Source: Limnochorda sp. L945t (GTDB lineage Bacteria; Bacillota; Limnochordia; Limnochordales; Geochordaceae). From it: a DNA stretch of 64,000 nucleotides. The stretch is taken from the NCBI RefSeq assembly GCF_035593305.1, contig NZ_CP141615.1, forward strand, positions 62,001 to 126,000, written 5' to 3'. Under the pieces are notes generated by a model. The model did not search any database. It worked only from the letters and a program-made list of their open reading frames with translations, and was not told the DNA's origin. A program made the position numbers and the translations under genes. This document shows, in pieces, positions 12,377 to 57,048 of this stretch; the stretch's first letter is position 1, and each line of letters opens with the position of its first letter.

Positions 12377-12826
12377 TCACATGGCGGCCAGGCACGAACG
12401 GCACAATCCGTAAAACTCCAGCAAGTGCCCCTGGATGCGGACGCCGAGGCGCTGCTCGATGTCGCCGACCATACCCGCCGCCGTACACTCGTCGAACTCG
12501 ATGACCCGGTGGCACCTGTTGCAGATGAAGTGGTGGTGGCTCCCCTGGTCGGCCGCGCTGTAGTGGGCCCGGGTGGTGCCCAGGAGCGACGGCTGCACTG
12601 CGCATACCTTGCTGAGGATGGCGAGCGTCCGGTAGACCGAGGCCCTGCCGACACCGGGATGCCGGCGCCGCACCTCCTCGACCACTTCCCTGGCGCTGCG
12701 GTGCCCCGACGACTGCATCGCCTCGACCACGGCCCTCCGGGCCGCCGTGACCCGGTACCCGGCCGCCTTGAGCGCCTGCAGCATGCTGGAGACGGTCTGC
12801 TCGTGAGCCTTTCCGTCATGGGCCAT
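12377..12826 (-). CDS. Fur-family metalloregulator, probably Zur
   Basis: A 149-residue Fur superfamily repressor. The winged helix contains YRVTAARRAVVEAMQ and GRASVYRTLAIL. The dimerisation half has the HHHFICNRCHRVIEF motif with one structural Cys pair (CNRC) and the second pair CRSC close to the C-terminus. The immediate downstream genes encode a ZnuABC-like importer, so zinc sensing (Zur) is most likely; Fe or Mn sensing cannot be excluded. I chose the ATG at 12824-12826 as the family-like start. Just upstream lies a tandem 16-bp repeat that could be its own operator. Confidence 0.9.
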   Translation of the reverse strand: MAHDGKAHEQTVSSMLQALKAAGYRVTAARRAVVEAMQSSGHRSAREVVEEVRRRHPGVGRASVYRTLAILSKVCAVQPSLLGTTRAHYSAADQGSHHHFICNRCHRVIEFDECTAAGMVGDIEQRLGVRIQGHLLEFYGLCRSCLAAM

Positions 12827-45558: not shown

Positions 45559-46074
45559 CTACTTGCCGTGCTCGGTAGCGCTTCCCATGCGCTTGGCCCG
45601 TTCGGTCATGACATAGTGAGTGGCCTGCTGGAGGTCGAGCAGTTCGCCGCCGTTTTGCGCACGGTAGCTTCGTGCCTCGTCGGCGCTTGCGAAAGCGATG
45701 AGCCCGTAGCGCATCGGCGTGCGGATCTCCGTACGCACGTACGTGGCGGTGCGGGCGTCGGTCCACTCCCCGCTGGGCCAGTCGTGCACGAACGCTCGCA
45801 GGATCTCCTCGTTTTCGGCCACCTTGGTCTTCATGTAGACCAGCAGGCAGCCGATGTCGCAAAACGTGAACTCCCCTGCGCTCGTCACGAGGCCTGCCGA
45901 GTGTTGGACGTCCTTGATGATCATCTGGCACGGGTAGTTGGCACAGCGGCTTTCGCCGGGCACGATCTCCGGGGGCCGGACTGCCTCGCCCACCGCCAGG
46001 GCGCCACCGCTCACCCCCAGCATGAGGATGGCGAGCCCGAGCACGAGCATGCGTCGATCACGAAGCGTTGGCAT
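45559..46074 (-). CDS. nosL: NosL-like copper chaperone (intact copy)
   Basis: A 171-residue NosL family protein, which delivers copper for the NosZ CuZ centre. An N-terminal membrane or signal segment (MLVLGLAILMLGVSGGALA) is followed by CANYPCQMIIKD, a variant of the NosL CxxCGM copper motif with four residues between the Cys, then FTFCDIGCLLVYM and the conserved end DARTATYVRTEIRTPMRYGL. No lipobox Cys is visible, unlike proteobacterial NosL lipoproteins. It is the last nos gene, 27 nt after nosY. A second copy two genes upstream has a nonsense codon, so this one probably carries the function. In this copy the canonical Cys spacing is altered. Confidence 0.85.
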   Translation of the reverse strand: MPTLRDRRMLVLGLAILMLGVSGGALAVGEAVRPPEIVPGESRCANYPCQMIIKDVQHSAGLVTSAGEFTFCDIGCLLVYMKTKVAENEEILRAFVHDWPSGEWTDARTATYVRTEIRTPMRYGLIAFASADEARSYRAQNGGELLDLQQATHYVMTERAKRMGSATEHGK

Positions 46075-46101: not shown

Positions 46102-46929
46102 TCAGAAGTCCTGCTGTTCGAAGCTGCGACACGCTACGAACAGCGGCAGCACCAACCACAGTCCCACGGCGAGGGGCAAGAGGACCCAACCGCCGACGTC
46201 GCTGAGGGTCGCCGACAGGACGGCGCCGGGCGCACCCAGGCTCGCCCTGGCTCCGATGAGCAAGAGGCCGAGCACGCGCACCAGGTCGACCGGGTTGGCC
46301 ATCACCATCGACAGCAGGAGCGGCCGGACGACCTCGCCGCTCAGCATCACGCTGAGCCCCATCGCGACCAGGTCGTACAGCACGACGAGCAGGCCCCACA
46401 CGATGATGGCGCCGCCGAGGGCCCGGCTACGATCCCGGGAGGTGATCCCGAGGAGCACCCCTATTCCCAGGGAAATGGCGACGAGCAGCACCGACAGGCC
46501 GACGATCCCCAGATACCGCAGCCATCCCTCGGTGCCCGCCCGCATGGCGATGACGAAACCCGCGGCGCCGAAGGCGACCAGGGTCGAACCAGCCAGCGCC
46601 GCACCCACGCCCAGGTAGCGGCCCACCACCACCTCGCTGCGTGTGACGGGTTGGGCGAGTATCAGGTGGTGGCCCTCCCGCTCGCCCGAAAAGAGCAGCG
46701 AACCGACTGCAAGGGCGACCAGCGGCAGCACCAGGGTGATGACACTCAGAAGGCTCATCGATGTCCTGACGAACCCGACGAACCCGCTGAACCCGGTGTG
46801 GAACATCCCGAAGTAGGAAAGGGAAAGCGCCAGTGCGGCGAACACGATGGCGAAAACCCCGGACCACCGTGCCCGGCTCACCACCCGGAACTCCCAGCGG
46901 GCGACGTCTCGCAGCGTAGCGGCTCTCAC
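46102..46929 (-). CDS. nosY: NosY-like ABC permease
   Basis: A 275-residue ABC-2 type membrane subunit of the NosDFY complex, which is needed to assemble the copper centre of NosZ. Six helices are visible, the first near residues 24-44 (VFAIVFAALALSLSYFGMF). FSGEREGHHLILAQPVTRSEVVVGRYLG near 81 is the conserved cytoplasmic motif and SFEQQDF the C-terminus. The GTG at 46927-46929 overlaps the TGA of the preceding nosL frame (GTGA), which shows that frame was once translated to its end. Confidence 0.9.
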   Translation of the reverse strand: MRAATLRDVARWEFRVVSRARWSGVFAIVFAALALSLSYFGMFHTGFSGFVGFVRTSMSLLSVITLVLPLVALAVGSLLFSGEREGHHLILAQPVTRSEVVVGRYLGVGAALAGSTLVAFGAAGFVIAMRAGTEGWLRYLGIVGLSVLLVAISLGIGVLLGITSRDRSRALGGAIIVWGLLVVLYDLVAMGLSVMLSGEVVRPLLLSMVMANPVDLVRVLGLLLIGARASLGAPGAVLSATLSDVGGWVLLPLAVGLWLVLPLFVACRSFEQQDF

Positions 46930-47414
46930 CGCCGCGCCTCCTCTCGCAGGAGGTCCATCGCGGCCACCTCGTCATAGGTCATGACCCGGCCGCCGTGCTC
47001 CCGGGCCATCGCCTCCGCCTCTCCACGGTCCCGAAGGGTGACCAGGCCGTAGAGCATGGGAGTCTTGTGATGCGTGGTGACCCACCATGCGGTACGGGCG
47101 TCCAGCTACTGCTGGGTGTTCCAGTCGGGCACGTAGGCGGCGCGTACGCCTTTCCAATCGGGATGGTGGCGGAGTTGGTAGACCACCAGGCAGCCGACGT
47201 CGCAGAACTTGAGGACCCGATCGGTGGTGATCATCTGCGCGGCCGAGCGCGGGTCGGTCAAGACCATGCCGCACTCGACGCAATCGTCCACTCCGTAGAG
47301 CACCTGGGCCGGAGGCGGTGGGCCCTGGGAGCGCGTCGCCAGCCCCACGGCGACGGCGCCGGCCGCCAGTGCGATACCCGCCAGGATCACGGTGAGCTTC
47401 CCCCGCCCTGTCAC
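46926..47414 (-). pseudogene. nosL: Second nosL copy interrupted by an in-frame TAG
   Basis: A NosL-like frame of 162 codons broken by a single TAG at 47106-47108 (codon 103). Before the stop: signal segment, CVECGM (the canonical NosL copper motif, Cys near 44), FCDVGCLVVYQ and VPDWNTQQ. After it the same frame continues with LDARTAWWVTTHHKTPMLYGL and another 40 codons, ending exactly on the nosY start (GTGA). Aligned to the intact copy, the TAG sits where that copy has Trp (SGEWTDART), so one TGG to TAG change explains it. Either a recent nonsense mutation, a sequencing error, or readthrough. Truncated at 102 residues it would still hold the copper motif. Confidence 0.85.
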
Positions 47415-47420
47415 AGCCGC

Positions 47421-48398
47421 TCACCTCGCCTTTCCGTTGGTCGGTACCTCGCCGGCCTGGGGGGATGCGGCCGGCTGGACCCGGCCCATGTAGGCAGTGA
47501 GGAGTTCTTCGAGGCTCGTCCGGCCGGTCCGGAATTCGCGCGGGGCGTACCCGGCGCGGTGGAGTTCGCTCAAGAGCTCCAGGGCCCGATCCGCCGTGCA
47601 GGACAGCACCAGCTGCCCGCCCGAGTTGGTGCCGACCCGTATCCCGAGCCGCTCCAGGTATCCCCGGGCTCCCGCGACATCGTCGACGGTCACGTGGAGA
47701 CGGCTCTCGAGGCGCCCGGCCACGGCGTGCGCCGACTCGTCCGCCACGACCCGTCCCGACTCCAGGATGACGATGCGGTCCGCGCTGTGCATGGCATCCT
47801 CGAGCAGGTGGCTCGAGACCAGTGCGCACCCGCCCCGCTGCCGTACCTGGGCCAGGATGTCGCGCAGGCGCTGGCGGCCTTCCACGTCGAGGTTGAGGGC
47901 GGGCTCGTCGAGCAGCAGCACCCTCGGCTCGCCGAGCAGCACCTGCGCCAGCGCGAGGCGCTGGAGCATACCCCCGGACAGCTCCCGCACCAGGCGAGTC
48001 TCCAGGCCCGCCAACCCCACGGCCTCCAAAGCGGCGGTGATCACGCCGGACACGTCCCGCAGGCCCGGCAACCGGAGCGTGGCGAAAAACTCCAGGACTT
48101 CCCAAAGCTCCATGGTCTCACCGAGGAAGACCCGTTGAGGCAGGAAGCCGAGTTGTTGCTTGGCCGGCAGCGACCCGGCGGGGTGCCCCAGCACCCAGGC
48201 TCTCCCTTCGGATGGCCAGGTCAGACCGGCCAGCACCTTGAGCAGGGTGCTCTTGCCGGCGCCGTTGGGTCCCACCAGGGCCACGATCTCGCCGGGCCCC
48301 ACCGTGAGGGACACGTGGTCGAGCGCCACGACCTCGCCGTAACGCTTGGACGCCCCCTCCACGTGGAGCAGGGGAACGTCCTCATGGGACGTGTTCAT
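47421..48398 (-). CDS. nosF: NosF-like ABC ATPase
   Basis: A 325-residue ATPase of the NosDFY maturation complex. Walker A GPNGAGKST is near residues 43-51, the signature LSGGMLQRLALAQ near 139, Walker B VLLLDEPALNLD near 157, and the switch His in SSHLLEDAMHSADR. A C-terminal domain of about 95 residues follows, as in other NosF proteins. The ATG at 48396-48398 overlaps the nosD stop (ATGA), and its stop is 6 nt before the second nosL copy. Confidence 0.93.
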   Translation of the reverse strand: MNTSHEDVPLLHVEGASKRYGEVVALDHVSLTVGPGEIVALVGPNGAGKSTLLKVLAGLTWPSEGRAWVLGHPAGSLPAKQQLGFLPQRVFLGETMELWEVLEFFATLRLPGLRDVSGVITAALEAVGLAGLETRLVRELSGGMLQRLALAQVLLGEPRVLLLDEPALNLDVEGRQRLRDILAQVRQRGGCALVSSHLLEDAMHSADRIVILESGRVVADESAHAVAGRLESRLHVTVDDVAGARGYLERLGIRVGTNSGGQLVLSCTADRALELLSELHRAGYAPREFRTGRTSLEELLTAYMGRVQPAASPQAGEVPTNGKAR

Positions 48399-49798
48399 CC
48401 CCGTCGTCCCCCTCTCCGCCTGCGTCCTCCCGCCCGAAGGATCCCGAAGCCGGCCACACACGCTGCCACGGAGACGGTCGCACTCCACGCCACGGGTTGC
48501 TGCGCTTCAGAGGCACCCAGGCGATCCAGGAGGTCCCGGGGCACCGGGCGAGGCCGCATCACCGGGTAGCGGTCGAGCGCCTGAGGCCGGTCGAGCAGAG
48601 GAAAGGCGCGCTCGGCCAGGGCCACCGCCGCCACCGCCGGGCTCTGGAAAAACAGCTTGAGCTCGGGGTAGCTCTCGACCAGGTGGCCGAAGACCTCGCT
48701 GGCGTCGAACGGGACGTCGCCCACCCCGTTGCCGTCGAGGTCGTACCCGCGGTACTGGCTCCAGTAGTTGCCCCGGCCGACGCCGTCGTCCCATCGCTGC
48801 CGGTGGTTGCCGGGGCTGAGGTAGACGCCTTCCCCGTTGGCCGCGAAGGTATTCGCGACGAAAACGTTGTCCTGAGAACTCGCCAGGATGCGCGCGGCTA
48901 TCTCGTTGGCCGCCACGAAGTTGTTGCGCAGCGTGCACCGGACCGCGAAGTCGAGGGAGAGGCCGGTCTCGTTGGCGAGCACCAGGTTATCTTCGACCAT
49001 GGCCCCGTCGGCGTCTTTCAAGAAGAGCCCGTAAGCCCCGTAACCGTAGCTCTTGGCGAAGACGTTGCGCCGCACCACGAGCCGCTTGGAGTACATGATG
49101 GCCGAGGCCACGCCGTTGCCGACGAAGACGTTCTCTTCGAAGACGTTGTCGTCGGAGAACATGTAGTGCAACCCAATGCGGCCTCTCTCGATGCGGTTGG
49201 ACGCAATCCGGTTATGGGAGGCGAACTCGACGTAGATCCCGTCGCGCGGCGTGATGATGTGGTTGTGTTCGACGACGTTGCCGTTGGAGTTGTAGAGGCG
49301 GATGCCGTCACCTCGGTCGTGCTCGATCAGTTCGGCCAGGCCTTCGATGCGGTTGTGCCGGATGACGTTGGCATGACCGCCCCACACGTGAATTCCGAAG
49401 AGCACGCGACGCAGCGTGTTTCGCTCGATCACGTTGTCGTTGCCCAGCACCTTGATGCCCGATTCGTCCCGCCAAAGGCGGTGCCCGCCTCCCACGACGG
49501 TCATACCCCGTACCGTGACGCCGTTTGCTTTGATCGTGATCACGTCGCCTTCGGGGCCGCCGTCCACCACGGCCCCGGGGAGCCCCTCCAGCACCACGCG
49601 CTTGTCGATGATCACGTTCTCCCGGTAAACGCCGGGGTGGACTCGGATGACGTCCCCGTTGGACGCGGCGTTCAAGGCAGCAGAGATGGTGGGGTAGGTC
49701 GTGGCGCTGCCGACCTCCAGCACGGCGGCGCCGGCGCGCTCGAAGCCCGGGGCGAGCGCCGCCAGGACGCAACACGCTACGGTAGCCCAGCGCCTCAC
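48395..49798 (-). CDS. nosD: NosD-like periplasmic beta-helix protein
   Basis: A 467-residue exported beta-helix protein needed for CuZ assembly. A signal peptide (VACCVLAALAPGFERAGA) leads into TYPTISAALNAASNGDVIRVHPGVYREN, then repeated coils of the NxIxxN kind (DNVIERNTL, ANVIRHNRIEG, HNRIASNRIERG, DNVFEENVFVGNG). The NYWSQYRGYDLDGNGVGD motif near 360 is a NosD hallmark. A C-terminal hydrophobic segment plus Arg/Gly tail (ACVAGFGILRAGGRRRRGG) probably anchors it to the membrane. The GTG at 49796-49798 overlaps the nosB stop. Confidence 0.93.
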   Translation of the reverse strand: MRRWATVACCVLAALAPGFERAGAAVLEVGSATTYPTISAALNAASNGDVIRVHPGVYRENVIIDKRVVLEGLPGAVVDGGPEGDVITIKANGVTVRGMTVVGGGHRLWRDESGIKVLGNDNVIERNTLRRVLFGIHVWGGHANVIRHNRIEGLAELIEHDRGDGIRLYNSNGNVVEHNHIITPRDGIYVEFASHNRIASNRIERGRIGLHYMFSDDNVFEENVFVGNGVASAIMYSKRLVVRRNVFAKSYGYGAYGLFLKDADGAMVEDNLVLANETGLSLDFAVRCTLRNNFVAANEIAARILASSQDNVFVANTFAANGEGVYLSPGNHRQRWDDGVGRGNYWSQYRGYDLDGNGVGDVPFDASEVFGHLVESYPELKLFFQSPAVAAVALAERAFPLLDRPQALDRYPVMRPRPVPRDLLDRLGASEAQQPVAWSATVSVAACVAGFGILRAGGRRRRGGRRG

Positions 49799-50436
49799 GG
49801 CTTTGTCGCTCCTGCCTTTGGGGCGTGCAGGTGCTCGGTGAGGGACGCGCTGCGAGACTGGCGGGCGGGGGCCGACGTGATCCAGGCGTAGAAGACGAGC
49901 GCCATGCCCGCCAGGAAAAGGATGGCCCCCCAGTTGAAGTAGCTGAGGGTGGTGAAGTTGGCCAGGCGGTTCCATCCGATGACGGGGGGCATGAAGGGAT
50001 CGATGCGAATGGGAGCCTTCGGATCGAGGTCGTGCCCGTACCGGTACAACCAGCGGTAAAGGTCGTACAGCAGCAGGAGGAGCGCAGGGCTGGCCGTGAC
50101 GAGGGCCCCGGCGAGCCAGCGGCGCCGCGTGAGCGCTGCCACTAACATGATCGCCGCCACCGCGACGAAAGCCGGCGGCAGGTAGCGAAACTCGGGGAAG
50201 TCGGCGGCGTCGATGGGCTTCATCCCGATGTAGTGATTGAGGCTGTTGATGACGTCGATCCGCCCGCCGAGTTTGTGGGCGTAGACGTGCAGCTTGAGCC
50301 CCTCCGGGTACTGGGGAGCCCCGAGTCGTAGCGACCACAAGGGTCCCAGGAAGGAAAGCGCCACGCACAGAGCGGCCAGTAACATCGCCAACCGAGCGCG
50401 CCGGTCCAGCGTACCGGCGAACAGCCATCGGCCCAT
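49795..50436 (-). CDS. nosB: NosB-like membrane protein of clade II nos operons
   Basis: A 213-residue membrane protein with about five helices (near residues 15-33, 85-103, 110-128, 163-180) and a conserved-looking external loop (APQYPEGLKLHVYAHKLGGRIDVINSLNHYIGMKPI). Its place directly after nosZ and before nosD is that of nosB, a gene typical of clade II nos clusters whose role in N2O reduction is unknown. The assignment rests on position and topology more than on a motif I can recall. It lies 107 nt downstream of nosZ, on the same strand. Confidence 0.7.
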   Translation of the reverse strand: MGRWLFAGTLDRRARLAMLLAALCVALSFLGPLWSLRLGAPQYPEGLKLHVYAHKLGGRIDVINSLNHYIGMKPIDAADFPEFRYLPPAFVAVAAIMLVAALTRRRWLAGALVTASPALLLLLYDLYRWLYRYGHDLDPKAPIRIDPFMPPVIGWNRLANFTTLSYFNWGAILFLAGMALVFYAWITSAPARQSRSASLTEHLHAPKAGATKP

Positions 50437-50543: not shown

Positions 50544-52382
50544 TCACTTCTTGGGTTTGACCAAGAACCACCCCTGCATCTCCTGGTGCAACGCGGAGCA
50601 GAAGTTGGTGCAGTAGAACGGGTACACTCCGGGTTTGGTAGCCTTCACGTGAAGCGTCTTGGTTTCGCCCGGCTCGACCTGCATGTCCACGTTGTAGAGC
50701 GGGATGCCGAAGCCGTGGGTGATGTCCTGGTCCATGTCGTTGTTGGTCAGGTGGAAGTAGACGTCGTCGCCCTCGTTGACTTCGACCCGGTCCGGGATGA
50801 ACCGGCTGCGAATCGCGACGATGTACGCGTCCACGCGGTTGCCCTTGCGGACGACCCTGGCATCCTTCGGATCCCAGACGGAGTTGGGGCGCTTCACGTC
50901 CTTGTAGAAGACCACCTCGGGCTTGATCTTGTCTGCCTTGATCATCTGGGCGTAGTGCGGCTCCGGATCCACGGGCGATTCGTAGACGAGCTTCATCTTG
51001 TCTCCCGAGATATCGATGAGCTGCAGGTTCTCGGGGTGGCTGGGGCCGACCGGCAGGAAGCGGTCCTTGGCCATCTTGTTGAGGCTCACCAGCCACTTGC
51101 CGTCCGGGGAGGTGGTGTCACCCTCGGCGGCGCACAGGTGGCCGACGTTGTAGTGGACGTCCACTTTGTCGATGACTTTCCACTCGCCGATCTTCCACTT
51201 GACGATGGCGGAGTCGATGAAGAGGCTGGTGTAGGCGTACCCCTTGTCGTCGAACTGGGTGTGGAGCGGCCCGAGCCCCACGGGCACTTCGGCGACCCGC
51301 ACCGCCTCATAGTCCAGGATGGGAAGCCCGCGCTCTTCGCCGGCGAACTTCTTCGCCTCGATGGCCGACTTGATCTTCTCGAAGTCATAGACGGTGACGG
51401 TCGGTTGGAGCTTGCCTGCCGCCGCAATGTGCCGGCCGTCCGGCGCGACGTCCACGCCGTGAGGGCTCTTGGCCACGGGCATGAGGTAGACGATACCCGG
51501 CACCTTGACCGGGTCGATCACCTTCGCGCCGGCGATGGTCTGGAACTTGCCGGCAGCAGCCGCCTTCTCCGCCTCTTTCCAGTTGACCATCACGATGAAG
51601 TCCCGGTCCCGAGCGGAGGCGCCGACCTCCAGGGTCTCGTACGCTTCCTCGGTGTTGTACGTCGTGAGGAAGTACCAGCCGTCGCTGACCTTCTTACCGG
51701 CGTCGCCGAGATCGAAGGACCACGGAGGCAGCAAGAGCTCCCAGGCGAGTTCCATGTGGCCCGACTTGGGATCGATCTTCACGCCCGCGAGCACGCCGTA
51801 GTACTTGCTCTTGAACTCCTGGATGGGAACGTAGGTGCCCGCGGGAACGGGCGTGGCAAACCGGGACCCCATGAACAGGTACTCCGTGTTGGGCGTCACG
51901 AAGGTGGCGGAGTGGGGGCCCATGATGTTGGGAACGGGCCCGAGGATCTGTTCGGTGTAAAACGTCTTGAGGTTGATCCGGGCCACCCGGTTGTTGGCGT
52001 TGTCGTTGACGAACAGCCACCGCCCGTCATACTCGCCGTTGGTCTCCGACAGCGCCGGGTGGTGAACGTCTCCCCAGGTGAGCCCTCCCAGCATCGCCTT
52101 GGTCTCTTCGTCGTAGCCGTACCCCCAGGCGGGGTCGGGCGTGAAGACGGGGATCGTGCGAATCCGCCGCATGGACGGCACCCCGTAGACGAATACCTGC
52201 CCCGAGTGCCCGCCCGAAGCGAAGAGATAGTACTCGTCCAGCTTGCCCGGTGGGACGAGCGCCTTGCTCGCATCCCCGCCGGGGGTCTCCTTGCCGCCGA
52301 ACAAGGAGAAGCCGGACAGGAGGGTGACGAGCACGAGCGCCGCCAGGCCCCAGACTACGTGCTTCAGATGACTTCGACGCAT
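50544..52382 (-). CDS. nosZ: Nitrous oxide reductase NosZ, Sec-dependent clade II type
   Basis: A 612-residue N2O reductase that reduces N2O to N2 outside the cytoplasmic membrane. The leader MRRSHLKHVVWGLAALVLVTLLSG has no twin-arginine motif, so export is by Sec, the mark of clade II. The seven-bladed propeller carries the CuZ histidines in DVHHP, MGPHSATF, SPHGVD, GPLHTQFD, NVGHLCAAEG and EPHYAQ. The C-terminal cupredoxin domain binds CuA through YCTNFCSALHQEMQGW (Cys591, Cys595, His599, Met602). All key ligands are present, so it should be active. Genes upstream encode CuA-type proteins and a polyferredoxin, and genes downstream the maturation factors. Confidence 0.97.
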   Translation of the reverse strand: MRRSHLKHVVWGLAALVLVTLLSGFSLFGGKETPGGDASKALVPPGKLDEYYLFASGGHSGQVFVYGVPSMRRIRTIPVFTPDPAWGYGYDEETKAMLGGLTWGDVHHPALSETNGEYDGRWLFVNDNANNRVARINLKTFYTEQILGPVPNIMGPHSATFVTPNTEYLFMGSRFATPVPAGTYVPIQEFKSKYYGVLAGVKIDPKSGHMELAWELLLPPWSFDLGDAGKKVSDGWYFLTTYNTEEAYETLEVGASARDRDFIVMVNWKEAEKAAAAGKFQTIAGAKVIDPVKVPGIVYLMPVAKSPHGVDVAPDGRHIAAAGKLQPTVTVYDFEKIKSAIEAKKFAGEERGLPILDYEAVRVAEVPVGLGPLHTQFDDKGYAYTSLFIDSAIVKWKIGEWKVIDKVDVHYNVGHLCAAEGDTTSPDGKWLVSLNKMAKDRFLPVGPSHPENLQLIDISGDKMKLVYESPVDPEPHYAQMIKADKIKPEVVFYKDVKRPNSVWDPKDARVVRKGNRVDAYIVAIRSRFIPDRVEVNEGDDVYFHLTNNDMDQDITHGFGIPLYNVDMQVEPGETKTLHVKATKPGVYPFYCTNFCSALHQEMQGWFLVKPKK

Positions 52383-52418: not shown

Positions 52419-52850
52419 TCACGGTTTGACGACGAGCTGGCCCACCATGTTGCGGTGTAGCGCACTGCAGCGCACGTTGCACTGGAACGGGAACGTCCCT
52501 GCGCGATCGGCGACGAACTCCACGACCCGCGAGGTCCCTGGGAAGATGGGGCCCGTGTCGATACCGAAGTCGAGGAGCTGGAAGCTGTGCGTTACGTCGT
52601 AGCTGGTAAGCTTGATCCGTACCCGATCTCCCCTGCGCACCTCGAGGTAGGACGGCTGGAATCCGCCATCCTCGAAGATGCGGATGACGATGTGGAACTC
52701 GTTGGGCGCCGCGAGCGCCGGTCGCACCGCCCTTTCGTACCCGAAGATGGCGAGGGGCGCGCCGACGACGGCCAGGAAGACCAGGATGCCGGCCATCACC
52801 TCCTGACGAGCGCTTTTCCTGCCGTCTCCGCGAGTTGCCAACCGTCCCAC
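52419..52850 (-). CDS. Membrane-anchored CuA-type cupredoxin (COX2-like) 2
   Basis: A 143-residue protein with one N-terminal helix (VMAGILVFLAVVGAPLAIFGY) and a subunit-II-like cupredoxin domain. CuA ligands are complete: His in VTHSFQL near 88 and CNVRCSALHRNM near 124-135 (CxxxCxxxHxxM). The end of the domain closely resembles the CuA loop of the NosZ encoded 36 nt downstream. No oxidase subunit I gene is nearby, so this is probably an electron carrier or copper donor for NosZ rather than an oxidase part. The matching protein two genes upstream has the same ligands. Confidence 0.87.
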   Translation of the reverse strand: MGRLATRGDGRKSARQEVMAGILVFLAVVGAPLAIFGYERAVRPALAAPNEFHIVIRIFEDGGFQPSYLEVRRGDRVRIKLTSYDVTHSFQLLDFGIDTGPIFPGTSRVVEFVADRAGTFPFQCNVRCSALHRNMVGQLVVKP

Positions 52851-52872
52851 CGCCTGTCCTCCCCCGGTGCTT

Positions 52873-54348
52873 TCAGCCGAGGTACAGCCAAAGGAAAAGC
52901 TCCGCCAATCCCGTCAGGTACACGGCCAACGGCACGGACGCCAGGGCCGCGGCCCGGGTGTCGCCCTGGAAGTCGGATCGTAAGATGCGAAAGCCGCTCA
53001 GCACGCCCCATCCGAGCCCCACGAGCAGCACGGGCAACTGCAGGAAGGGCACCCAGCCCGGCACATAGGGCGTCCAGGGATAGGATGCGGTGCCGAGCAG
53101 GTTCCAACCCCAACCGAAGGGGTCCGAGATGGTGGGGACCGCGTAGGAGAGGTTGGGCAACACGAAAGAGAGGCTGAAGGCGATCCAGGCCATCAGCCCG
53201 AAGGGCACCAGCGCGTACGAAGCGTCGACGAAGAGCTCCTTGAGCGGGATGCGATGCCCCAAGCGCCCCGCAATCCAGCGGCCCAGCACCGTGGCTACCA
53301 GGTGGAGCAGGGGACCGGCCACGAGCGTGGTCAACAAGAACCCGGCGGCGTACACGACGAACCCTTCCGGTTGCCTGAGGCTGGCCCAATCCTTCAAGAA
53401 CCCGTGGGGCCCGAGCATCACGAGCGAGTAAGCGAGAGCGCTGCCCAGCATGATGAACGCCTTGTAGGCCTCGTCGATCTTGCGCCCCTTCTGGACGTAC
53501 AGGTCGAGACCGAAGGGGCGAGCGTTGATGGTGATGTTGTCGTACGGGCAGGCCTTGATGCACTCGGTGCAAAGGATGCAGTAGTTGTTGCGCTCCATGG
53601 GGGCGCCCGGGAACTCCGACATGGGACACGGGTATCCGCCCTGCCCGCCCACTGCGAGACTCTCGGCGGTGCTGCCACGGAAGCACGACTTGAACTTGCA
53701 TGCCAGGCAGGTCTCTGCGCTGCGCCGCCGGAGCTCCACGGGCGCAACCATGGAGTAGAGGCCGAGGAAGCCCCCCACGGGACAGAGGTAGCGACAAAAG
53801 GCGCGCCGCTCGTAAACCGGGTGCATGACGATGGCGAGCACGAACAGCCCCAGGAGCAGGGCGCCGGTCACCACCGGGCTGGTGGTCACGATAGCACTGA
53901 AGAGCGCGATGGAAAGGAACCCGAAGTTGGCGAGCCACAGATTGCGCAGCCGCCTCGGCCAGCGCCGGTTGAGGCCCCGGGGAGCGCCGTCGTGATGGCC
54001 GATGAACCGGCGGCGAGCCAACCACTCGCCCAGGGAGGGGATGGGGCAGGCGGTGCACCAGACCCGGGCCCCGAAGGGGACGAGCAGCATGATGAGCAGG
54101 GCCCACCAGACGATCCAGACGAAGACGACGGCGAAGTTTTTCGCGCCGATGGGGATACCGAAAAGCCCGCTCGCGATGATGACGACGAAGGCCAGTAGCC
54201 CGGGCCACATCAAGGCGAACTGGAACCAGCGCTGATGCAACAGCCGCGACAGGCGCGGCCAGCGCCGGAGGAGATCCCGTTTGAACACGCCGCGCGGCAG
54301 CGGGCGGGCTGTGACGGCAGCGGCTTCGGACGTTCCGGCAGGTCCCAT
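52873..54348 (-). CDS. NapH/NosR-like membrane polyferredoxin
   Basis: A 491-residue membrane protein with iron-sulfur motifs, likely passing electrons from the quinone pool toward NosZ. Two membrane helices lie at the start (WFQFALMWPGLLAFVVIIASG and the next), then VWCTACPIPS, two more helices, AFCRYLCPVGG (the NapH/NosR CxxxCP motif), CLACKFKSC, and a typical [4Fe-4S] ferredoxin motif CILCTECIKACPYDN; four to five helices follow. It lacks the FMN-binding periplasmic domain of full NosR. Start is ATG 54348, or TTG 54363, which would overlap the upstream stop (TTGA). It sits between two CuA-type genes. Confidence 0.88.
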   Translation of the reverse strand: MGPAGTSEAAAVTARPLPRGVFKRDLLRRWPRLSRLLHQRWFQFALMWPGLLAFVVIIASGLFGIPIGAKNFAVVFVWIVWWALLIMLLVPFGARVWCTACPIPSLGEWLARRRFIGHHDGAPRGLNRRWPRRLRNLWLANFGFLSIALFSAIVTTSPVVTGALLLGLFVLAIVMHPVYERRAFCRYLCPVGGFLGLYSMVAPVELRRRSAETCLACKFKSCFRGSTAESLAVGGQGGYPCPMSEFPGAPMERNNYCILCTECIKACPYDNITINARPFGLDLYVQKGRKIDEAYKAFIMLGSALAYSLVMLGPHGFLKDWASLRQPEGFVVYAAGFLLTTLVAGPLLHLVATVLGRWIAGRLGHRIPLKELFVDASYALVPFGLMAWIAFSLSFVLPNLSYAVPTISDPFGWGWNLLGTASYPWTPYVPGWVPFLQLPVLLVGLGWGVLSGFRILRSDFQGDTRAAALASVPLAVYLTGLAELFLWLYLG

Positions 54349-54359
54349 GGCGCTTGTGT

Positions 54360-54863
54360 TCAACCGCCCTTTCTCCACCAGGCGTAAGCAACTGCCCCGA
54401 GGCCGACGATGGCGGCCAGCACACCGCCCGTGTGGAAGAGCCGGTTGGGTTGAACGACGATCTCTCCCACCATGAACGGGTGCAAGGGCCCGCAGATGAC
54501 GGAACACCGGTAGCGCAGCTTACCCGGGCGATCGGCCACGAAAGAGACGACGCCTTCCTCCATCGGCGGCACTCGGATGTTGATCCCGTAGGCGTCGAGG
54601 TAGAGGCCGTGGGTGATGTCGAGCGAGCGCACCCTCAACGTGACCCGGTCCCCGAGGTTGACGTAGATGCGAGGAGGATCGAACGCGAACTGCCGGGCGG
54701 TGATGACGAACTCCCGCTCCTGTCCTCCCGCGGAGCCGGCGAAAGAGGGAAACAGCCAACTGACGGCCATGATCGCCGCGATGATGGCCGTGATCCCGAT
54801 TAGCTTTGCCCGCCTGGGGGCGGGACGCTTCCGGCCCGCGGTCCGGGTGAGGCTCGACTTCAC
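54360..54863 (-). CDS. Membrane-anchored CuA-type cupredoxin (COX2-like) 1
   Basis: A 167-residue protein with a helix at each end (LIGITAIIAAIMAVSWLF and LAAIVGLGAVAYAWW) and a cupredoxin domain between. CuA ligands are His in ITHGLYL near 84 and CSVICGPLHPFM near 121-132 (CxxxCxxxHxxM). The GTG at 54861-54863 has GGGAGGG upstream. It is the first gene of the nos operon and resembles the second CuA-type protein encoded after the polyferredoxin. Two such proteins flanking a polyferredoxin suggests a short electron path to NosZ. Confidence 0.87.
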   Translation of the reverse strand: MKSSLTRTAGRKRPAPRRAKLIGITAIIAAIMAVSWLFPSFAGSAGGQEREFVITARQFAFDPPRIYVNLGDRVTLRVRSLDITHGLYLDAYGINIRVPPMEEGVVSFVADRPGKLRYRCSVICGPLHPFMVGEIVVQPNRLFHTGGVLAAIVGLGAVAYAWWRKGG

Positions 54864-55045: not shown

Positions 55046-56392
55046 TCATGAAGCCCGGGGTCGCTGTAAGCCGAACCGCTTCATGCGCCGCCAGAGCGTG
55101 GTCCGGTTGATGCCGAGCGCCCGGGCGCACTGGCCGATCTGCCAGTGGTGGGCTTCGAGCGCTTGCAGGAGCTGCTCGCGCGAAAGCGCCCCCGCGTTGG
55201 GCGCAAGCGCCGGGTCGGGGGAAGCGGGCGAGCGAGGGTGGGGGAGAACCAGGTGGGGCGCATCGATGGCCGGCCCCTGAGCCAGGATGGCGGCAGCCCT
55301 CAGGACCCTTTCCAGTTCCCGGACGTTGCCGGGGAAGGGGTACGACATGAGGCGGGCCAGGGCGGCACCTGTCAGCTGGGGGAGGGGCTGGGCCTGCGGA
55401 GTCATGTCGGCCAGGATCTTCTCCGCCAGGAGGGGGATGTCGTCCAACCGGTCCACGAGAGGCGGCAACACGACCCGCCGCTGCTGCAACGCTGCGGCCA
55501 GGCCTTTGTCGAAGCTGCCCGTGACGACCAGATCCTCCAGGCGGTGGTGCGTGCCGGCGACGATCCGAACGTCGGGCCATTGACCGGGGCGCCAGGCGTC
55601 GAGGTGGCGGGCCAGCGCGGCCTGGCAATCGGCGGGGAGGTCCGCGACGTCCTCCACGAACAGCGTGCCTTCATGAGCGAGATGCAGCGCGCCCACCGGC
55701 GCATGGCCATGGGCGCCGGAGTGGTCCCGATCCCCGAGCAGCCGCTCCCGCACTGTGACAGGGGGGAGGCCTTCGGTGAGCACGGGCACGAAGGGGCCTG
55801 CCGACCGGATGCCGAGCTCGTGGAGAGTGAGGGCTACCCAATCGGTCTCCGTGCCCGGGGGGCCTTGCACGAGAATCGGCCACTCGCTGTCGCGCAGCGC
55901 CTCGAGCGCCTCGTACAGCCGGAGCATGGGGCGACTCGCCCCGACGAGGCGCCCGTAGCCCTTGCACCGATCCCGTTCCCGTTGGTCCACCCCCGGGCGA
56001 CTTCCGAGCTCTGCAGTGACGTCCCGCAAGATGCGGACCGCGGCCAGGATGCGGTTACCGCGCCCCGTGAGCGGGACGGTACGGACTCGGACCAGCCGCA
56101 CGCGCCCGTCCTTGGAGAGTACCGGGCTTTCGAAGTCCTCCGGCGGCCGCCGGGTGGCGAACAACCCCTCGATGTCGCACACCCTGCGGCAAAAACGCCC
56201 GGCGCACACCTCGAAACAGCGGCTCCCCAGGGCCTCCTGGCGGGTGAATCCGGTCAGCTTTTCGGCGGCGCGGTTGAACGCGACGATGCAGAGATCCTCG
56301 TCCACCACCATGACCGCATCGTCGAGGGCGTCGAGCGCCGCTTCCAGGTGCTCCAGGCGCTCATCGGACCAAAACGGCAAGCTCGTCAGCAC
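55046..56392 (-). CDS. PAS/degenerate AAA+/Fis-type regulator, probable nos regulator
   Basis: A 448-residue protein built like a sigma-54 activator. Residues 15-125 are a PAS domain with four Cys evenly spaced (CFEVCAGRFCRRVC, Cys59, 63, 68, 72), which could bind a metal or Fe-S centre. Residues 145-375 are an AAA+ domain, but Walker A reads GPPGTETD with no Lys, and the GAFTGA loop is replaced by SGAHGHAP near 225-232; Walker B-like TLFVEDV and the R-finger region FPGNVREL remain. The C-terminus is a Fis HTH (LEAHHWQIGQCARALGINRTTLWRRMKR). It overlaps the response-regulator gene. Start is near GTG 56392. It probably controls transcription without sigma-54. Confidence 0.85.
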   Translation of the reverse strand: MLTSLPFWSDERLEHLEAALDALDDAVMVVDEDLCIVAFNRAAEKLTGFTRQEALGSRCFEVCAGRFCRRVCDIEGLFATRRPPEDFESPVLSKDGRVRLVRVRTVPLTGRGNRILAAVRILRDVTAELGSRPGVDQRERDRCKGYGRLVGASRPMLRLYEALEALRDSEWPILVQGPPGTETDWVALTLHELGIRSAGPFVPVLTEGLPPVTVRERLLGDRDHSGAHGHAPVGALHLAHEGTLFVEDVADLPADCQAALARHLDAWRPGQWPDVRIVAGTHHRLEDLVVTGSFDKGLAAALQQRRVVLPPLVDRLDDIPLLAEKILADMTPQAQPLPQLTGAALARLMSYPFPGNVRELERVLRAAAILAQGPAIDAPHLVLPHPRSPASPDPALAPNAGALSREQLLQALEAHHWQIGQCARALGINRTTLWRRMKRFGLQRPRAS

Positions 56393-57048
56393 TCCTCCTG
56401 TACGAGGCCCCTGCACAGCGCATACCGTACCAGGTCGGACCGCTCGCGCAGGCCGAGCTTTTCGCAAATGCGGCTACGGTACGTATCGACCGTCTTCACG
56501 CTGACGCCCACGCGCCTGGCTATCTCCTGGCGCGAGTAGCCGAGGGCGAGGAGCCGCAATACGTGCCATTCCCGATCGGAGAGCTCGGCACGGCCTCGCG
56601 GGCCCGGCAGCTGGGGCGAGAGCCCGCAGACCTGCGCCACATCCGGGTCGACGTAGAGCGCGCCGCCCGCCACCGTGCGCACCGCCCTGCACAGCTCGCT
56701 GGCGGGGCTCCTGGCGAGGAACAAGCCGCACGTCCCGGCGCGAACCAGCTCCCGGAGCAGGCTCAGCTCCGAGTGCACCATCAAGACCAGCGTGGCAACC
56801 GAAGGGCGGCGACGCGAGAGCCATTCGATGGCCTGGGTCTGCCGGGCACGGTGACACGTGCCGAAGAGGACCACGTCGGGCCTGAAGCCGTCGACCACCG
56901 CCTGCAGGTCACCGGCATCCGGCAGGTCGGCGACCACCTCCATGTCGGGCTGCCGCTCGAGGATGAGCCGTAGCCCCGTACGGAACACCTCGTGCGCCTC
57001 CACGACCACGATGCGGATGCGGTCACGAGCCGGCCGAACACCGCTCAC
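56386..57048 (-). CDS. NarL/LuxR-type response regulator with an atypical receiver
   Basis: A 220-residue protein with an N-terminal receiver fold and a C-terminal LuxR-type HTH (LSDREWHVLRLLALGYSRQEIARRV then SVKTVDTYRSRICEKLGL). In the receiver the phosphoacceptor Asp after PDVVLF is Gly63, and the usual acidic pair near the start is replaced (VVEAHEVF). It therefore should not take phosphate the normal way. No histidine kinase gene adjoins it. It overlaps the next regulator by 7 nt and both lie upstream of nos on the same strand, so they probably act together. Cys65 sits next to the lost site. Confidence 0.88.
   Translation of the reverse strand: MSGVRPARDRIRIVVVEAHEVFRTGLRLILERQPDMEVVADLPDAGDLQAVVDGFRPDVVLFGTCHRARQTQAIEWLSRRRPSVATLVLMVHSELSLLRELVRAGTCGLFLARSPASELCRAVRTVAGGALYVDPDVAQVCGLSPQLPGPRGRAELSDREWHVLRLLALGYSRQEIARRVGVSVKTVDTYRSRICEKLGLRERSDLVRYALCRGLVQEEC

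Follow-up and report, generated by a model that had tools for sequence, protein, structure and literature searches.

The nos operon studied here raises the question of how electrons travel from the quinone pool to nitrous-oxide reductase (NosZ) when the genes preceding nosZ encode two CuA-type cupredoxins and a membrane polyferredoxin, and with it the question of what NapH/NosR-type polyferredoxins do. The operon lies in a 64-kb stretch of DNA (the window) from a heat-loving subsurface bacterium whose 3.31-Mb genome forms one contig. Its genes are all on the minus strand, in the order CuA1, pFd, CuA2, nosZ, nosB-like, nosD, nosF, short NosL, nosY, nosL. An earlier note had placed the first three genes, here called the trio, directly before nosZ, and its coordinates proved exact. 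CuA1 (54360..54863; 167 amino acids; Pfam Cupredoxin_1/COX2) is followed by the NapH/NosR-like membrane polyferredoxin pFd (52873..54378; 501 amino acids; 38.7 bits on TIGR02163), the first 19 bp of which are shared with the 3' end of CuA1. The CuA cupredoxin CuA2 (52419..52850; 143 amino acids) comes next, and nosZ (50544..52382) begins 36 bp after it. NosZ is a Sec-type clade II enzyme with its own CuA domain and scores 911.6 bits on TIGR04246, the Sec/clade II model, against a cut-off of 625.

Directly 3' of nosZ lies a nosB-like membrane protein gene (49795..50436), which has no Pfam or NCBIfam match and a position-matched homologue in nearly all nosZ loci compared. It is followed by nosD (48395..49792, start approximate; TIGR04247, 398.8 bits) and by nosF (47421..48488), assigned as the ABC ATPase from ABC_tran and operon position, whose real start is probably downstream of the open reading frame start. 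The ABC-2 permease gene nosY (46102..46929; PF12679) and nosL (45559..46074; PF05573, 50.1 bits) complete the operon. Besides the full nosL, the operon has a second, truncated gene of this type, for a NosL-like copper chaperone of 102 amino acids (47106..47414; PF05573, 26.9 bits), which separates nosF from nosY. On the 5' side of the trio, also on the minus strand, lie genes for a PAS, sigma-54-interaction and Fis-type regulator (55046..56416) and a LuxR/NarL-type regulator (56386..57048); a related regulator pair precedes the trio of another locus (L070).

The pFd of the window shares 98% identity with its counterpart in the Limnochordaceae MAG Bu05 (L069), which has been assigned to one species with Carboxydochorda subterranea L945T (PMC11456536); the window probably comes from this species, which appears to be in culture. 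Strain L945T is reported to encode two cytochrome c oxidases and a cytochrome bc complex besides reductases for nitrous oxide and nitric oxide, and not to use nitrate or nitrite (PMC11456536).

Both cupredoxins carry complete CuA ligands, including the upstream histidine, as had been claimed. CuA1 consists of an N-terminal membrane helix, an extracytoplasmic CuA cupredoxin (His + CSVICGPLHPFM) and a C-terminal membrane helix, and CuA2 of an N-terminal anchor and a CuA cupredoxin (His + CNVRCSALHRNM), with no heme domain. In each, the C-x3-C-x3-H-x2-M motif is accompanied by the upstream histidine in a D[IV]TH context. The two proteins match the Thermus CuA domain (2CUA) at 48 bits (CuA1) and 49 bits (CuA2), and they also match the CuA domain of NosZ. 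With this ligand set in a cupredoxin fold, both are predicted to bind copper as CuA electron-transfer domains. All ligands are retained in 68 of 68 CuA1 orthologues and in 67 of 72 CuA2 orthologues. On the CoxB model for oxidase subunit II, CuA1 and CuA2 reach 38.3 and 31.5 bits, below the cut-off of 147.7. A recent origin of either protein by duplication of the CuA domain in NosZ is not supported, the three forming separate groups in a weakly resolved domain tree.

The polyferredoxin contains 11 cysteines that are invariant among 41 sequences (CxxCP, CxxxCP and seven ferredoxin-type cysteines); no histidine is invariant in this set. Its 38.7 bits on TIGR02163 (NapH/MauN) are far under the cut-off of 213, and all 41 relatives match the same model, which suggests a family related to NapH/MauN/NosH yet separate from it. 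On the NosR model (NF046105), whose cut-off is 1000, pFd reaches 17 bits, and the N-terminal FMN domain is absent; CcoG/RdxA (TIGR02745) gives 19.7 bits against 316.7. An AF2 model of the window pFd was obtained with pLDDT 88 and pTM 0.87, and AlphaFold predicts a natural CuA1-pFd fusion as one confident unit (pLDDT 90, pTM 0.87). A comparison with solved folds returned no convincing resemblance to pFd, and plasmid records held only distant relatives. Because its Fe-S loops are rich in arginine, the ferredoxin domain probably lies on the cytoplasmic side, and we infer that the conserved SDPFGWGW loop faces the outer side.

The earlier note had further described the operon as devoid of cytochromes. 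We found no CX2-4CH motif in any operon protein or in open reading frames of at least 60 amino acids in the 44-58 kb part of the window, and across all frames of the window the sole CxxCH-coding site (12509-12523) falls in a small protein about 33 kb from the operon. Besides pFd, none of the operon proteins scanned is a Fer4 protein, and with no CX2-4CH motif either, both NosG and NosC are missing from the operon; the three COX1-family genes of the genome all lie elsewhere. The claim that NosH is missing holds for canonical NosH only, since pFd is itself NapH-like (TIGR02163, 39 bits). Likewise, "cytochrome-free" describes the operon and not the cell, because pattern and family searches, together with selected stretches, revealed c-type cytochromes elsewhere in the genome. 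These comprise a b6-type complex with a Rieske protein and a diheme cytochrome c (the b6c complex), a monoheme cytochrome c, and five-heme and seven-heme cytochromes. A genome-wide CxxCH search gave 118 sites, the first 100 of which were listed, a total not above that of a reversed-pattern control. The genome also encodes two oxidases, one aa3-like and the other ba3-like, both having their own adjacent CuA subunit, and a third COX1-family enzyme, which is qNOR-like. Directly 5' of the b6c genes is a gene for a plastocyanin-type (type-1) blue copper lipoprotein (G000:C1, about 2160700-2161194; L033:6701-7195), a possible rival soluble donor for NosZ. The missing nosC by itself carries little weight, as absence of c-type genes is common at Chloroflexota nos loci: among 18 such loci taken at random, most have no adjacent cytochrome c gene. 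Gram-positive nos operons without NosGH have been reported before (PMC3475470).

To place the trio in a wider context, we scanned the pFd alignment against 84,980 species genomes, which yielded 502 relatives, and read the best 80 loci. CuA1, pFd and CuA2 occur together in nearly all of these best 80 of 502, in over ten phyla and usually without nosZ. The phyla include Chloroflexota, Rokubacteria, Planctomycetota, Acidobacteria, Actinomycetota, Neomarinimicrobiota, Kapabacteria, Myxococcota and Bacillota, and a Nitrososphaeria archaeon is represented as well. Such conservation across phyla places the trio far from a chance arrangement. CuA1 is an N-terminal fusion to pFd in nine proteins, and 58 of the 72 motif-bearing CuA2 proteins carry a fused cytochrome c domain that contains one or two CxxCH motifs. 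A search of the open-access literature, with subscription papers and preprints outside its scope, found no account of a CuA1-pFd-CuA2 trio.

The surroundings of the trio vary. Recurrent neighbours in the Chloroflexota loci (L073-L141) are genes for a histidine kinase, NarL-type regulators, PCYCGC, DUF1573 and DUF305 proteins, a P-type ATPase and propeller-multicopper oxidases; in other phyla, P-type ATPases, multicopper oxidases and PCYCGC/DUF305 proteins are found. In one locus (L050:6132-9700), a CuA1-pFd fusion and a CuA2 with leucine replacing the axial methionine adjoin a MauG/cytochrome c peroxidase-like diheme protein, possibly another acceptor. In four Rokubacteria loci (L117:8632-9579, L131:8638-9579, L132:7279-8253 and L135:8632-9579), a seven-bladed propeller is encoded directly 5' of a CuA1-pFd fusion and CuA2. 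This propeller has seven histidines in total. In three copies six of these occupy the hub position, each in a different blade, and in L132 the same pattern finds five; a propeller from the window genome (L045:10719-11747) has no hub histidine. On the L-NosZ model the Rokubacteria propellers reach about 103-113 bits, which is under the cut-off, and they may represent a split copper enzyme of NosZ type.

Linkage of the trio to nosZ is infrequent but recurrent. The trio is followed directly by nosZ in the window and in three further loci (L069, L070 and L088). In one more genome (G019), nosZ is divergent and about 5 kb from a trio that continues on a second contig; in another (G383), genes linked to the trio are nosF, nosY, nosL and one for a cytochrome c, and nosZ lies on a separate contig. 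The search of other genomes called for by the earlier note thus recovered the arrangement elsewhere, but it also revealed a trio-bearing nos region (L118) that does contain a cytochrome c gene. All four nosZ-linked CuA2 proteins tested are heme-free, compared with 10 of 68 others (Fisher p = 0.001, with only four cases), and the contrast between heme-free CuA2 beside nosZ and heme-fused CuA2 otherwise argues for an electron carrier. In quick trees, the linkage label changes at least three times on the pFd tree and at least four times on the NosZ tree, which indicates that trio and nosZ came together repeatedly, at least three times. Genomes of Chloroflexota with the trio carry nosZ more commonly (10/29) than random Chloroflexota do (19/300; p = 4e-5, a comparison that ignores lineage and genome size; the random draw comprised 300-301 genomes, 19-20 with nosZ). 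Conversely, a trio-level pFd occurs in 1 of the 19 random nosZ-bearing Chloroflexota tested, the L088 genome itself, and the pairing is therefore rare.

The best evidence for a function in electron supply comes from the position of the trio. The window NosZ is sister to the nosC-type NosZ of Gram-positives; together with the L070 NosZ, it groups as sister to the enzymes of G187 and G203. Immediately 5' of nosZ, the operons of these two genomes (L186 and L187) have the gene series cytc-Rieske-b6-IV-cytc, which encodes two cytochromes c with Rieske, b6 and subunit IV between them, at the place of the trio in the window. This suggests a module swap, in which the trio stands in for a set of electron-supply genes. 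Two other arrangements were observed at nosZ loci. In a Chloroflexi operon (L088:11477-12783), pFd and nosZ are separated by genes for a small plastocyanin-like lipoprotein and for a DUF3341-like protein, the latter presumably similar to ActD of alternative complex III. In other Chloroflexota and one Acidobacteria locus (L248, L249, L230:3-560 and L251), a lone small cupredoxin or CuA-like protein stands beside nosZ, with no polyferredoxin.

Taken together, we assign a probability of roughly 0.58 to the reading that CuA1-pFd-CuA2 is a membrane electron-transfer unit that gives electrons to the CuA site of NosZ in this organism. By analogy with NapH, menaquinol would reduce the Fe-S clusters of pFd, from which electrons would cross the membrane to CuA1, held against pFd. 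CuA1 would pass them to CuA2, both being anchored at the outer face, and CuA2 would dock on NosZ and reduce its CuA site; the trio would serve catalysis and not maturation. We infer the reductant, the sequence in which the carriers act, the passage through the membrane, the docking and the catalytic role alike, and electrons may reach NosZ by a largely copper route. The suggestion that CuA proteins replace cytochromes here is strengthened by the existence of a real unit, by its independence of any oxidase, by the heme-free nosZ-linked CuA2 and by the positional swap; it is weakened by the cytochromes of the genome, by the little that a missing nosC says, by the earlier reports of Gram-positive nos operons without NosGH and by the cytochrome c gene of L118. 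The weak point of the proposed route is the path to the outer CuA sites, as pFd has no conserved histidine and its Fe-S loops look cytoplasmic. Further against it, the genome holds other possible donors, namely the b6c complex with its diheme cytochrome c, the monoheme cytochrome c and the blue copper protein.

Since most trio loci have no nearby nosZ, the general partner of the module must be something else. A broader and doubtful proposal is that the trio is a portable quinol-to-copper module, repeatedly captured by beta-propeller copper enzymes, that it is the sole route to NosZ here and that the Rokubacteria propeller is a split NosZ-like enzyme. Electrons would then normally pass to the fused cytochrome c, and the N2O respiration branch of the window organism would operate without any c-type cytochrome.

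An unlikely alternative is that the trio acts as a NosR-like system for activation and maintenance, in which occasional reductant keeps CuZ and CuA active and the catalytic electrons come from the b6c complex via cytochrome c or blue copper. All of these carriers are encoded in the genome, and in L118 a cytochrome c gene accompanies the trio. The role of NosR, a membrane Fe-S protein, is itself debated (regulatory, donor or maintenance) and not well understood (PMC7660919). However, the missing FMN domain and the score of 17 bits set pFd apart from NosR, the corresponding position in the sister lineage of NosZ is held by genes for catalytic electron supply, and CuA2 is elsewhere, away from nosZ, fused to an electron-carrying cytochrome c.

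Less probable still is a role in copper handling, with pFd reducing Cu(II) and the CuA-like proteins passing copper to the CuA site of NosZ. The P-type ATPase and multicopper oxidase neighbours in other phyla leave room for it, as does the weak similarity of pFd to CcoG (19.7 bits). CcoG is thought to reduce Cu(II), and NosZ requires copper. But a chaperone would not need the full CuA ligands that are so consistently kept, the heme fusions of CuA2 point to electron transfer, and the operon is already equipped with NosD, NosF, NosY and two NosL-like proteins. That CuA1 and CuA2 belong as subunits to a heme-copper oxidase or an NO reductase and lie beside nosZ by chance is very improbable, although their domains resemble cytochrome ba3 subunit II. 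The two oxidases of the genome have their own CuA subunits, the third COX1-family enzyme is qNOR-like, and oxidase subunit I occurs in 1 of 82 trio loci within the flanks read, about 7 kb away. An oxidase role, which the earlier note had named as one finding that would overturn its proposal, is thus essentially excluded.

A polyferredoxin and two CuA proteins in place of Rieske, b6 and cytochrome c beside a closely related NosZ make both of the questions raised at the outset testable. A cytochrome-light N2O sink, if true, would also be relevant to the mining of metagenomes for N2O reducers.

Among known systems, NosGCH, NosR and nosC with Rieske/b6 share with the trio either the task or a distant polyferredoxin, and their defining features were not found in it. 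NosR of clade I resembles pFd as a transmembrane polyferredoxin with CXnCP motifs that has been proposed as an electron donor to NosZ, but pFd lacks the periplasmic FMN domain and has CuA proteins as partners. The CuA site itself is that of oxidase subunit II and of the caa3 CuA-cytochrome c fusions, which many CuA2 orthologues parallel; unlike in cytochrome c oxidase, the partner here is a polyferredoxin and not subunit I. The clade II system of Wolinella succinogenes (NosG-NosC1-NosC2-NosH with NosB) likewise has a NapH-like membrane polyferredoxin beside nosZ and a NosB-like protein 3' of it, and both polyferredoxins are assumed to oxidise quinol. In contrast to that system, the window operon has two CuA proteins instead of a NosG-like Fe-S protein and cytochromes c, and pFd is longer and far under the NapH/MauN cut-off. 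The nearest NosZ sequences are found in the Gram-positive nosC-nosZ operons (Bacillus azotoformans; PMC3475470) and in those of G187 and G203, which share the downstream NosB, NosD, NosL, NosY and NosF genes. These operons carry a cytochrome c gene 5' of nosZ, joined in G187 and G203 by Rieske, b6 and subunit IV, at the place that the trio occupies in the window.
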